From Phyllobacterium sp. YR531 (GTDB taxonomy: Bacteria > Pseudomonadota > Alphaproteobacteria > Rhizobiales > Rhizobiaceae): a stretch of DNA of 64,000 nt. The notes beneath the pieces were generated by a model. It had not been told where the DNA came from, made no database searches, and saw nothing but the letters and a program-made list of their open reading frames with translations. Of the stretch, positions 21,181 through 58,093 are shown piece by piece. The translations under genes were made by a program, and so were the position numbers. The stretch lies in the NCBI RefSeq assembly GCF_000282595.1, contig NZ_AKIZ01000039.1, positions 1-64,000 of the forward strand, written 5' to 3'. Each line of letters opens with the position of its first letter. The stretch's first letter is position 1.

Positions 21181-21318
21181 GTGCGTGGTTCCCCCTTCGA
21201 CAGGCTCAGGATGCTCACCATGATGAAGGTGGGTTGATTGCAGGCGGTACAAACCGTGCCATCGCTGTCTATTGCAAAACACCAGCATTCCTCATGGTGA
21301 GCCCCGTCGAACCACGCA
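21181..21318. repeat. Inverted-repeat element copy 1
   Basis: Short palindromic element whose outer arms read GTGGTTC...GCTCACCATGA and TCATGGTGAGC...GAACCAC. The left arm carries the long variant (CCTTCGACAGGCTCAGGAT inserted before GCTCACC), the right arm the short one (CCCCGTCGAACCACGC). It lies between the ATP-grasp gene and a small frame upstream of it. The loop holds a weaker inner dyad (GATTGCAGG...TTGCAAAA). Confidence 0.85.
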
Positions 21319-21351
21319 CAACCGGTATGCAAGTAGCTATAATTCGATCCA

Positions 21352-39736: not shown

Positions 39737-39752
39737 CCACTGCATAAATCTT

Positions 39753-39867
39753 GTGCGTGGTTCGACGGGGCTCACCATGAGGAGGGTCAGTGATCTGCAG
39801 TGTTGCCAAGATATGGCTCCCTGCAATCATTCCACTTCCTCATGGTGAGCCCCGTCGAACCACGCAC
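39753..39867. repeat. Inverted-repeat element copy 3
   Basis: Short-variant arms on both sides (left 39753-39783, right 39835-39867) enclose about 50 bases with the inner dyad GATCTGCAG...CTGCAATCA. It is placed between the DUF2793 gene and the uraH stop, 13 bases from the latter, and could serve as a bidirectional transcript end. Confidence 0.85.
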
Positions 39868-39880
39868 AACAGTCTTGCAC

Positions 39881-40786: not shown

Positions 40787-40898
40787 GCGCGTGGTTCGAC
40801 AAGCTCACCATGAGGAAAGTTTATTGATCGCAGGGCGCTTGATTTTGGCCGACTGCAATCCACCGCCCATCTTCATGGTGAGCTTGTCGAACCACGCA
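40787..40898. repeat. Inverted-repeat element copy 4
   Basis: Arms contain the CGACAAGCTCACCATGA variant on the left (40797-40813) and its inverse complement on the right (40873-40898). The loop has GATCGCAGGG...GACTGCAATC. It lies between xdhB and uraD, within what should be one purine-catabolic operon, and creates a spurious N-terminal extension of uraD. Confidence 0.85.
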
Positions 40899-54891: not shown

Positions 54892-56385
54892 ATTACAGAA
54901 CATGCAGTTGTGATAGTTGGAGCAGGTCCGACAGGCCTGATGCTGGCAGGCGAATTGGCCTTGGCAGGCATTGACGCAGCCATCGTCGAACGCCGTCCGG
55001 ATCAGGAACTTGCCGGTTCCCGCGCCGGTGGTCTGAGTTCGCGCACGCTGGAGGTTCTCGATCAGCGCGGAATCGTCGACCGTTTTCTGGCGGAGGGACA
55101 AAAAGCTCAGGTTACGGGATTTGCGGCGATAAGGCTGGACATCAGCGATTTTCCGACAAGGCATAATTATGGATTGGCGCTCAGGCAAAAACATATTGAA
55201 CGCATTCTCGCCGAATGGGTCGGTGAACTGGCGGTGCCAATCTATCGCAACCGTGAGCTGAGCTCCTTCGCGCAAGATAAAAGCGGTGTAACAATCGAGC
55301 TGTCCGATGGTACATCACTTCGGGCATATTATCTTGTCGGCTGCGATGGCGGTCGCAGTCTGGTCCGCAAAGCAGCTGGCATCGAATTTCCGGGTTGGCA
55401 CGCGACGACCAGCAACATTCTTGCCGAAGCCCAAATGACGGAAGAGCCGCCGCTTGGTGTCCACCGCACGGCACAGGGCATCCATGCGTTTGGCAGGGAG
55501 AAATATGAAATCCTTGATGGCAAGGTAGTTTTTGCCAGTGATGGTCCTTTGAACATCATGGTGACCGAACCGAATACCGAAGCTGCCACAGAGCCAACGC
55601 TGCGTGATCTCAGTGAGGCCCTCATGGCAGCATGCGGAAAAGATTATGGCATACATAGTCCAACATGGATTTCGCGGTTTACTGACGTTTCGCGGCAAGC
55701 TGCAACTTACCGCAGCGGCCGGGTATTACTGGCTGGCGATGCCGCGCACGTGCATTCGCCGGTGGGTGGACAAGGGCTGAATACCGGCGTGCAGGATGCG
55801 GTCAATCTCGGCTGGAAGCTTGCCCAAGTGGTGAAAGCAATATCTCCCGAAGCTTTGCTGGACACTTATCACGCAGAGCGCCACCCGGTTGCTGCGCGCG
55901 TGCTGCGCACAACAATGGCGCAGGTTGCACTGCAACGCACTGATGACCGCACTGAAGCCCTGCGTGAGATCATGTCGGAATTGTTCGGCATGGATACACT
56001 CCGCAAACGGATCGCCGCCGAAATGTCCGGACTTGGTATCCATTACGACCTTGGCGGCGGACATCCGCTTGTTGGCCGCCGCATACCCGATCTTCACCTG
56101 ATAGTGGCTAGCGGTCGGGTGCGAATGTTTGAGCTTTTGCATGATGCGCAGCCAATATTTTTAAATCTTGGCGTGCCCGGCAGGTTTGACATCGAAGCAT
56201 GGTCAGACCGCGTGCAACTGCTTGATGCCCGTTATGATGGCCCATGGGACCTGCCCGAACTGAGTTCCGTCACCGCTCCAACCGCAGTGTTGGTCCGGCC
56301 AGACGGATATGTTGCATGGGTGAGCGAGGGAACCCAGGACGGTCTTCGCGATGCGATGACCATTTGGTTCGGAACACCTGCGTGA
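54892..56385 (+). CDS. FAD-dependent aromatic-type monooxygenase
   Basis: A flavoprotein of about 497 residues of the PheA/TfdB/MhpA group, also resembling rifamycin monooxygenases. The dinucleotide fold VIVGAGPTGLMLAGELALAG, the CDGGRSLVRKAAGI region and the GDAAHVHSPVGGQGLNTG FAD motif are intact, with a thioredoxin-like C-terminal part. No ATG, GTG or TTG precedes the first beta strand except GTG 54910, which lacks a ribosome site. An ATT at 54892 has GAGGGAG seven bases upstream and gives a proper N-terminus, so an ATT start is proposed. Substrate unknown. Confidence 0.85.
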   Translation: MTEHAVVIVGAGPTGLMLAGELALAGIDAAIVERRPDQELAGSRAGGLSSRTLEVLDQRGIVDRFLAEGQKAQVTGFAAIRLDISDFPTRHNYGLALRQKHIERILAEWVGELAVPIYRNRELSSFAQDKSGVTIELSDGTSLRAYYLVGCDGGRSLVRKAAGIEFPGWHATTSNILAEAQMTEEPPLGVHRTAQGIHAFGREKYEILDGKVVFASDGPLNIMVTEPNTEAATEPTLRDLSEALMAACGKDYGIHSPTWISRFTDVSRQAATYRSGRVLLAGDAAHVHSPVGGQGLNTGVQDAVNLGWKLAQVVKAISPEALLDTYHAERHPVAARVLRTTMAQVALQRTDDRTEALREIMSELFGMDTLRKRIAAEMSGLGIHYDLGGGHPLVGRRIPDLHLIVASGRVRMFELLHDAQPIFLNLGVPGRFDIEAWSDRVQLLDARYDGPWDLPELSSVTAPTAVLVRPDGYVAWVSEGTQDGLRDAMTIWFGTPA

Positions 56386-56417: not shown

Positions 56418-57113
56418 TCAGCGTGGAGCAAGGCCGTCAAGCAGGAAGTCGAGACCTTTTCTGAACGCGCCGTCCCAATCATTGTCGAGCAGCAGGCGAG
56501 TACGTTCAATTGTGGGGTAGCGACCGCTGATCTGTTCGAGGCGCTGTTGCGCGGCAACCATTTCATCATCGGAGAGGTCAAAACTCGCCCGGGTAATTGT
56601 TGCACCCATGACATAGTTCCACAGGGACCATATCGCCACGTTTAAATCGGCATCCGTCACGCCTGCCCCGGACAAGGTTTTGCTCAACAATTCCAAGCGG
56701 TTGAGTATGTTGGAACCAAGCGCCCGGCGCGGTAACAGAGCTGCTGACCATGGGTGACGCAACATGCTGGTGCGCCAGTCTTCAAGCATATGAATGACTT
56801 CTGCACGCCAGTTTTCTGAGGGCGCTATTTGCTGTGATCCGCGATATTCGAGAACGCAATCGAGCGCCAGATCAAACACCTTTTCCTTGTTGTCAACATG
56901 CCAGTAAAGGCTCATGGCACCCGCACCGAGGCGATCGGCCAGCCGCCGCATCGACAATCCGTCAACCCCGTTTTCGTCCAGCATTTCCACCGCGGTCGTA
57001 ATAATACGTTCCAGCGACAGTGGCGGCTCGCTGTGCATCTCACGATCAGAATCGGATAACCGGGTTTTCCGCCGGGACCGTTTGTTCGACATGCTGCTGG
57101 GTTTGGCTGACAT
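56418..57113 (-). CDS. TetR family transcriptional regulator
   Basis: About 231 residues. The N-terminal HTH (SLERIITTAVEMLDENGVDGLSMRRLADRLGAGAMSLYWHVDNKE, given here only in part as its key run LSMRRLADRLGAGAMSLYWH) and a TetR_C_1-type ligand domain are present. AAGGAAA lies before ATG 57113; an upstream ATG at 57137 is less likely. It is divergent from a RidA-like gene across a 44-bp perfect dyad, and convergent with the FAD monooxygenase gene. It probably represses itself and the ridA-like gene, perhaps also the monooxygenase operon. Confidence 0.88.
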   Translation of the reverse strand: MSAKPSSMSNKRSRRKTRLSDSDREMHSEPPLSLERIITTAVEMLDENGVDGLSMRRLADRLGAGAMSLYWHVDNKEKVFDLALDCVLEYRGSQQIAPSENWRAEVIHMLEDWRTSMLRHPWSAALLPRRALGSNILNRLELLSKTLSGAGVTDADLNVAIWSLWNYVMGATITRASFDLSDDEMVAAQQRLEQISGRYPTIERTRLLLDNDWDGAFRKGLDFLLDGLAPR

Positions 57114-57177
57114 CATTTTCCTTGGCAATGAGTCCATAGATTTAAGCTGACAACAGGTGATTGTCGATTCAAAGTGA

Positions 57178-57224
57178 TTGACTCGTACGGCGTACGATGC
57201 AATTTAATCGTACGCCGTACGAGT
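57178..57224 (+). promoter_or_regulatory. TetR-type operator overlapping a promoter
   Basis: ACTCGTACGGCGTACGAT (57181-57198) and ATCGTACGCCGTACGAGT (57207-57224) form a perfect 18-bp inverted repeat with an 8-base centre. Each arm itself contains the near-palindrome CGTACG(G/C)CGTACG. TTGACT at 57178-57183 and AATTTA at 57201-57206, 17 bases apart, form a plus-strand promoter inside the operator. A second TTGACT at 57224 is also possible. Confidence 0.75.
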
Positions 57225-57306
57225 TGACTGTGCGGAGTGGAATCGAAGTTTAATCCTGCCGGGCGCGATGGCATTTTCCGCAGCCGGCAATACCCAAGAG
57301 CGAACC

Positions 57307-57795
57307 ATGTCACGCGCAATCAAGCATCTATTTATCGGAGGGCTCATCATCATGAATATGGGATTTTCTAGTGCGGCGACAGCACATGAAACTGATCGCA
57401 AACTGACAATCGTCAATCCCAAGACTCTCTACGACCCGACACCGAATGGTTATAGCACCGCCGTGATTACACCCGGTGGGGGCCGTGTGGCCTATATTTC
57501 CGGACAGGGTGGCCAAGATAGCACAGGCGGCCTGTCACCGGATTTCGCCGTGCAGGTAAAGCAGGCTTATGCAAACCTGCACGCTGCCATTGATGCGCTC
57601 GGTGCCAAGCCGGATCAGGTAGCCAAGCTCACAATTTTCGTGGTCGATCACGACATGTCCAAGCTTGAAGTGCTGACCAGAAACGTCAAGGATATGTTCG
57701 GTGAAACATTGCCGGCACAGACCTTGGTTCCTGTCCCCAAGCTGGCAATTGATCCCATGCTCTTCGAGGTGGAAGCTACGGTCATTCTGGACTGA
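57307..57795 (+). CDS. Exported RidA-like (Rid superfamily) protein
   Basis: About 162 residues with an N-terminal hydrophobic signal (LFIGGLIIMNMGFSSAATA) ahead of a RidA/YjgF domain. The domain has YSTAVITPGGGRVAYISGQGG and the conserved helix YANLHAAIDALGAKPDQVAKL. Ordinary RidA has PARS with the Arg essential for imine hydrolysis; here the position reads PAQT, so deaminase activity is doubtful. The ATG at 57307 starts at the signal; a longer frame starts at 57268. It is divergent from the TetR gene. Confidence 0.8.
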   Translation: MSRAIKHLFIGGLIIMNMGFSSAATAHETDRKLTIVNPKTLYDPTPNGYSTAVITPGGGRVAYISGQGGQDSTGGLSPDFAVQVKQAYANLHAAIDALGAKPDQVAKLTIFVVDHDMSKLEVLTRNVKDMFGETLPAQTLVPVPKLAIDPMLFEVEATVILD

Positions 57796-57842
57796 TGGAG
57801 CCGAGTTCAGTGCAACTACAGTGCGTGTTGCAACGCAGTCAA

Positions 57843-57979
57843 TGCGTGGTTCGACAAGCTCACCATGAGGAAGGACGCAGATTGCATATACGCTCAAACG
57901 GCTAGCAATCGGAAGGTCCTGCAACCCTCAACCTTCCTCATGGTGAGCATCCTGAGCCTGTCGAAGGGCGAACCACGCA
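57843..57979. repeat. Inverted-repeat element copy 7
   Basis: Left arm short (57843-57872, CGACAAGCTCACCATGAGG variant), right arm long with ATCCTGAGCCTGTCGAAGG (57932-57979). The loop has GATTGCATA...CTGCAACCC. It lies 47 bases after the RidA-like gene and before the convergent end of the phytase-like gene. The rest of 57796-58093 has nothing recognisable. Confidence 0.85.
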
Positions 57980-58093
57980 CTATAGTTATGTCAGCATTAA
58001 AATGCTTTCAAAGCCGAATGCATTGTCGCAGAAATCGGTCCAGAAGCTGAACTTGTGCCCGATCTCTGCGGCAATCATTATTCCCGGTTCCGG

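Follow-up and report, generated by a model that had tools for sequence, protein, structure and literature searches.

Between a gene for a TetR-family repressor and a divergent gene for an exported RidA-like protein, Phyllobacterium sp. YR531 carries 44 bp of DNA that read as one perfect inverted repeat. An initial annotation of the 64,000-nucleotide stretch in which it lies (hereafter the window) took this symmetry as a sign of very tight repression by two TetR dimers, and the question raised by the locus is whether the perfection of the dyad does reflect selection for control, or instead the way in which two neighbouring binding sites mutate.

The dyad itself is as first described, with arms at 57181-57198 and 57207-57224 that are complementary at 18 of 18 positions and separated by 8 nt, and each arm does contain a palindrome of its own, which is 15 bp long and has an odd centre. 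The interval originally given begins 3 bp before the dyad, thereby including the start of a TTGACT motif. The dyad is the longest perfect inverted repeat in the window (gap of at most 20), compared with maxima of 9-12 for the arms in 20 dinucleotide shuffles, and as single-stranded DNA the stretch is predicted to fold with -22.9 kcal/mol (z -7.5 against shuffles). Across the whole 5.0-Mb assembly of 41 contigs, TCGTACNNNGTACGA occurs exactly only at the dyad and CGTACGNCGTACG exactly only at the dyad's two places, with one more place at one mismatch. Importantly for what follows, each palindrome mirrors itself everywhere except at its centre, so that two such sites with mirror-related centres make a long perfect dyad automatically.

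We hypothesise that the dyad is the operator pair of the adjacent TetR-family repressor within a divergent tetR/ridA switch, a reading that we consider very likely on the basis of comparative sequence analysis. One repressor dimer would sit on each 15-bp operator, TCGTAC-N3-GTACGA, the operators would lie in overlapping divergent promoters, and the repressor would turn down both its own gene and that of the exported RidA-like protein until a ligand releases it; binding, repression, the promoter positions and ligand release are all steps that we infer. The module is thus very probably an ordinary TetR-type divergent switch with an exported target; what was not expected is that its operators evolve in concert. 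Here we propose, with a slight preference for this view, that the 44-bp dyad is perfect mostly as a by-product of mutation: the two adjacent palindromic operators would form a quasi-palindrome, in which template switching during replication may copy the centre of one operator onto the other.

A predicted operator pair between tetR and an exported RidA-like gene

The features of the locus are collected in Table 1. Alignment with orthologs favours the start MSAK of tetR (57113) over the start of the longer open reading frame at 57137. The protein scores above the curated cut-offs both for the TetR N-terminal helix-turn-helix (36.2 bits, cut-off 24) and for the TetR_C_1 ligand domain (47.2 bits, cut-off 21), and, as expected of the family, putative palindromic operators lie beside its own gene. 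It does not reach the equivalog cut-off of the tetracycline repressor model NF010319 (77.2 bits against 265). Solved proteins that come nearest to it in sequence and fold include PamR2, SimR, BioQ, ActR and tetracycline repressors, where the AlphaFold model, being of modest confidence (mean pLDDT 67.9, pTM 0.57), was used for the nearest folds only.

Table 1. Coordinates of the features discussed, numbered from the first base of the window.
Feature	Positions	Strand	Basis
tetR, TetR_N and TetR_C_1 domains	56418-57113	-	domain searches; start by ortholog alignment
Conserved block GATTGTCGATTC, perhaps part of the tetR promoter	57159-57170		consensus of 49 loci with 25-bp spacing
Probable -35 of ridA, TTGACT, touching the tetR-proximal operator	57178-57183	+	TTGAC here in 99 of 104 loci; function inferred
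Perfect dyad, two 18-bp arms and 8-nt centre	57181-57224		repeat search, shuffle control, hairpin fold
tetR-proximal operator TCGTAC-GGC-GTACGA, centre 57190	57183-57197		sequence; kept beside tetR orthologs
Possible extended -10 (TGC AATTTA) between the operators, weak consensus match	57198-57206	+	17 bp after -35; partly conserved spacer columns
ridA-proximal operator TCGTAC-GCC-GTACGA, centre 57215	57208-57222		sequence; kept beside tetR orthologs
ridA-like gene, signal-like N-terminus, Gln replacing the RidA Arg	57307-57795	+	PF01042; alignments; signal read by eye

The catalytic arginine of the RidA imine deaminase is Arg105 in E. coli RidA. The divergent gene encodes a Ribonuc_L-PSP domain (PF01042), and at the position aligned with the arginine of PH0854 all 80 of 80 aligned sequences carry glutamine; the closest solved chain, 5v4f, likewise lacks that arginine. 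Given this substitution, ordinary RidA imine deaminase activity appears doubtful for the protein, which scores 36.4 bits with the Rid hydrolase model TIGR00004 against a cut-off of 106.25.

The suggestion that a promoter overlaps the dyad is supported by conservation, in that 99 of the 104 loci described below have a TTGAC directly next to the tetR-proximal operator, whereas a scan of 57060-57320 for canonical sigma-70 promoters returned no full promoter. On the opposite side of the pair TTGAC is exact in 28 of 104 loci and is absent from the window. If the conserved TTGAC serves as the -35 of ridA, the start site of this gene would fall within its own proximal operator, and both operators could then block ridA. 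The further conserved block at 57159-57170, between tetR and the operators, has the consensus GgaTcGACAttc on the tetR strand.

The pair is conserved together with tetR in many bacteria of soil and roots. Orthologs of tetR with at least 55% identity are present in 22 of 198 other sampled genomes of the family, and at E of 1e-60 or below in 49 of 394 genomes of a larger sample that includes the window's own. A protein search gave at least 561 relatives among 589 stretches, the best 80 of which (hereafter the named loci) include representatives of Phyllobacterium, Rhizobium, Sinorhizobium/Ensifer, Mesorhizobium, Aminobacter, Devosia, Microvirga, Inquilinus, Dongia and Pelagibius. A divergent ridA is present in 79 of these 80, the remaining locus ending at a contig edge, and a pair of sites 22-28 bp apart in 73. 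Operator pairs 23-26 bp apart are present in 104 of the 114 distinct loci that carry a tetR ortholog, with a spacing of 25 bp, as in the window, in 65, 24 bp in 36, 26 bp in two and 23 bp in one. The ten without such a pair comprise four with one site, one with a single weak site, two with sites 36 bp apart, one with sites 32 bp apart, one partly of N and one at a contig edge. Thus the proposal of two TetR dimers side by side is strongly supported by the conservation of paired sites beside tetR orthologs, although binding itself is predicted from this pattern.

Within the 104 pairs the GTAC blocks are nearly invariant (90-100% per position, values inflated by a search that tolerated up to 3 arm mismatches per site), while the centres vary; outside the blocks, at a loose arm position in the second operator, C is found in 71 of 104. 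At least one operator is imperfect in 53 of the 104 loci, which suggests that the switch can do without a perfect dyad, and the idea of special tightness finds no support. Further afield, five TetR homologs of 30-35% identity (L029-L033) have no such site within 300 bp upstream. A search for tight operator pairs in 385 genomes sampled across the class returned only the window, while the loci identified by protein extend to Inquilinus, Dongia and Pelagibius. Two homologs of 35-39% identity (L027 and L028) have a related site, TCGAAC-N3-GTTCGA, and this shifted operator may show how specificity evolved.

Two further loci deserve mention. One ortholog (L011) has the same perfect operators as the window, with centres GGC and GCC, and no ridA was found in its 1.5-kb flank, the sole such case among the 104. 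In addition, the plasmid record NZ_CP084753.1, labelled Roseateles sp. XES5 with the organism marked as unverified, carries tetR and flanks identical to those of a genome of the window's family (G259), with matching coordinates, and the label looks wrong (L185 and L137).

The conserved unit consists of tetR, the sites and ridA, since the window's other neighbours were almost never matched near the 80 named loci when about 6 kb on each side were scanned, where the contig allows. The substrate of the nearby monooxygenase had been suggested as a possible inducer, with a search for further sites before the hydrolase, cupin and monooxygenase genes as a check. The suggestion found no support: monooxygenase and cupin are near 0 of the 80 named loci and the hydrolase near one, and there is no operator-like match with up to two mismatches before these genes, so we reject the substrate as a candidate inducer. 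Two matches with three mismatches lie inside the monooxygenase gene, at chance level. The window's aminotransferase has a weak match (22-35% identity) near five of the 80. Genome-wide, 80 other places, listed in part, match the operator with one or two mismatches, and since a reversed-pattern control gives 221 they are no evidence for further targets. The monooxygenase (54910-56385) is an FAD enzyme by NCBIfam PRK06834 (854.7 bits, cut-off 625) and is related to rifampin monooxygenases, yet falls under their cut-off (465.5 against 800).

Covariation of the operator centres

In 36 of the 104 loci the two 3-bp centres are exact reverse complements of each other, whereas 10,000 shuffles, which permute one side and ignore relatedness, average 7.7 such loci and never exceed 17. 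The complementary pairs are of 11 different kinds. Directly identical centres are not enriched (6 of 104, expected 5.4). The excess is also seen when loci chosen by protein alone, the window and the named loci, are considered (22 of 68 complementary, expected 5.9, maximum 15; this subset leaves out loci already fetched under other ids), and when the eight loci that came from a site-pattern search (L119-L139) are removed (29 of 96, expected 7.0, maximum 17 in 10,000 shuffles). All 21 genomes of the site-pattern search are also present in the protein search.

The signal is concentrated in pairs spaced by 25 bp (29 of 65 complementary, expected 5.6), with at most a weak excess at 24 bp (5 of 36, expected 2.0, a value reached by 299 of 10,000 shuffles). 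It is likewise concentrated in loci with perfect operators, 31 of 51 of which are complementary (expected 4.8), against 5 of 53 with imperfect ones (expected 3.5). Column by column along the dyad, at 25-bp spacing, the three centre positions covary with z of 4.8, 7.5 and 2.6, whereas most flank columns show no covariation; small signals occur at one arm position (z 3.2, from few changes) and one spacer position (z 3.5). The centres are non-random, being mostly purine-N-pyrimidine, and in 68 of the 104 loci they are not fully complementary.

Relatedness was taken into account with a quick TetR tree of 101 loci, three with short tetR translations being left out. Among 23 disjoint tree pairs whose members have different middle bases in the first operator, 19 have different middle bases in the second too, and in nine of the 23 both members are complementary at this base (5,000 shuffles average 1.5 and never exceed 7). 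When whole triplets are compared, both members are complementary in 8 of 38 pairs. Where the middle base of the first operator is shared, that of the second still differs in 19 of 36 disjoint pairs, so independent change of a centre is common.

The centres also change quickly. In 20 close pairs they differ at 39 of 120 positions, compared with 264 of 2465 fourfold sites of tetR, 11 of 480 arm positions and 160 of 900 flank positions, the last compared ungapped and therefore inflated by indels. For centres against fourfold sites Fisher's test gives p of 4.6e-10, treating positions as independent and with flank and fourfold yardsticks that may themselves be constrained. In one instance Sinorhizobium sp. 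CCBAU 05631 and S. fredii NXT3 are identical in tetR and the compared flanks and have the centres GGC/ACC and GGT/ACC, an unpolarised difference; these plasmid records (L176 and L177) are one centre base apart, and the S. fredii NXT3 version is a perfect dyad.

Origin of the mirror symmetry

In quasipalindrome correction a polymerase that changes template inside a hairpin uses one of the arms to rewrite its partner, and homogenisation of arms between nearby inverted repeats has been described for E. coli reporters and yeast genes (PMC8604942; PMC7202029). The dyad has the near-perfect, closely spaced inverted arms of such a template-switch site (18-bp arms, 8-nt gap), and our comparison finds an excess of changes that mirror one arm onto the other, the single changes being unpolarised. 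Quasipalindrome correction fits mirror matching with diverse letters, the lack of direct matching and fast change. We therefore favour, by a small degree, the view that two adjacent operators belonging to a single repressor change in concert with no selection involved, leaving hypervariable, mirror-matched centres between frozen half-sites. If template switching does homogenise the sites, the perfect dyad would reflect mutation and not extra-tight repression.

A different reading of the covariation is that the repressor itself recognises the centre triplet and that cooperative dimers need mirror-related centres, so that selection acts at the level of protein and DNA. The predominance of purine-N-pyrimidine centres is in keeping with this, but 11 kinds of complementary pair are diverse for a single readout, and direct identity, which would serve two symmetric dimers equally well, is not enriched. 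Moreover, a related TetR binds tetO1 and tetO2 independently (PMC11686294). We regard selection of this kind as unlikely. Nor does the dyad seem to have been selected as a whole, as an RNA hairpin or DNA cruciform to which the TetR sites would be incidental or an added layer, even though its fold is strong and the covariation of its centres resembles that of paired bases; the arms are broken in many orthologs, and covariation is missing from most flank columns beyond the operators. For an RNA hairpin in particular, a start inside the far operator, which is what TTGAC as the -35 of ridA would imply, would leave no RNA with both arms, and at 25-bp spacing wobble-type mismatches are below shuffles on both strands (GT 16 against 36.3, AC 24 against 38.5), so that neither strand looks like an RNA tolerant of wobble. 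Searching 56900-57500 against Rfam gave no match up to E of 1, and with wobble-type mismatches also free of strand preference we reject an RNA element. Selection of the whole dyad is in our estimation improbable, and a selected RNA hairpin is less likely than quasipalindrome correction. These observations leave some probability to a DNA cruciform.

It is position and conservation that tie the TetR protein to the sites, which leaves room for a different regulator; however, 104 of 114 loci combine this tetR with the pair and not with the other neighbours that it has in the window, and in the window's genome exact copies occur only here, making another regulator very unlikely. Inverted repeats are also typical of transposon ends, attachment sites and terminators. 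Against these readings, the dyad is found at one and the same position, between tetR and ridA, across many genera, and the genome holds no further exact copy; they are largely refuted by this conservation and we give them next to no weight. A terminator was rejected as well, as no terminator-like site was found.

If concerted evolution by template switching is correct, paired binding sites would owe part of their maintenance to mutation instead of selection. The covarying centres suggest homogenisation of regulatory site pairs through replication errors, which bears on how tandem sites originate and persist, and they warn that a mirror-symmetric or covarying stretch of DNA is not necessarily an RNA hairpin or a sign of tighter control. 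The comparison also defines, for rhizobia and relatives, a conserved repressor-operator module in which tetR and the gene of the exported RidA-like protein flank the operator pair, and the predicted operator motif is testable at once.

Relation to known systems and further repeats in the window

The proposed arrangement resembles that of Tn10 TetR with tetO1 and tetO2, where the repressor's own gene and its target are repressed via two operators, as predicted here. In tetO2 the eight most important positions form two 4-bp blocks around a 3-bp centre (PMC11686294), which parallels the GTAC blocks around a variable centre in our sites. However, the half-site is GTAC here and TATC in Tn10 tetO2, and the target is an exported RidA-like protein instead of an efflux pump. 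SimR of the simocyclinone cluster is a second parallel, since it binds two separate operators between the divergent simR and simX (PMC5812520) and is reported to have an N-terminal extension, which is also found in the window's TetR; its host and target gene are different, and the likeness concerns the arrangement of the sites. The RidA-like protein shares the Ribonuc_L-PSP domain with the RidA/YjgF family, from which it differs in its signal-like N-terminus and in the glutamine at the arginine position. Unlike the known quasipalindromes, the arms considered here are two operators of one repressor, followed through natural variation. Among the literature listings searched, we recognised no paper on template-switch correction of paired operators or on the tetR-ridA pair. 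In one paper the motif TCGTAC turns up as a CRISPR repeat.

Other repeats of the window may be noted. The sequence TCGAACCACGCACAA occurs twice, and once more as a near reverse complement, at 21307-21321, 39751-39765 and 39855-39869, and these places stand among weak motif hits. The repeat GTTCGACAAGCTCACCATGAGG is found three times in the window when one mismatch is allowed, at 40794-40815 (+), 40871-40892 (-) and 57849-57870 (+), where chance would give 0.01 for up to 3 mismatches, and the copy downstream of ridA lies inside a longer inverted repeat, read by eye at about 57840-57985.
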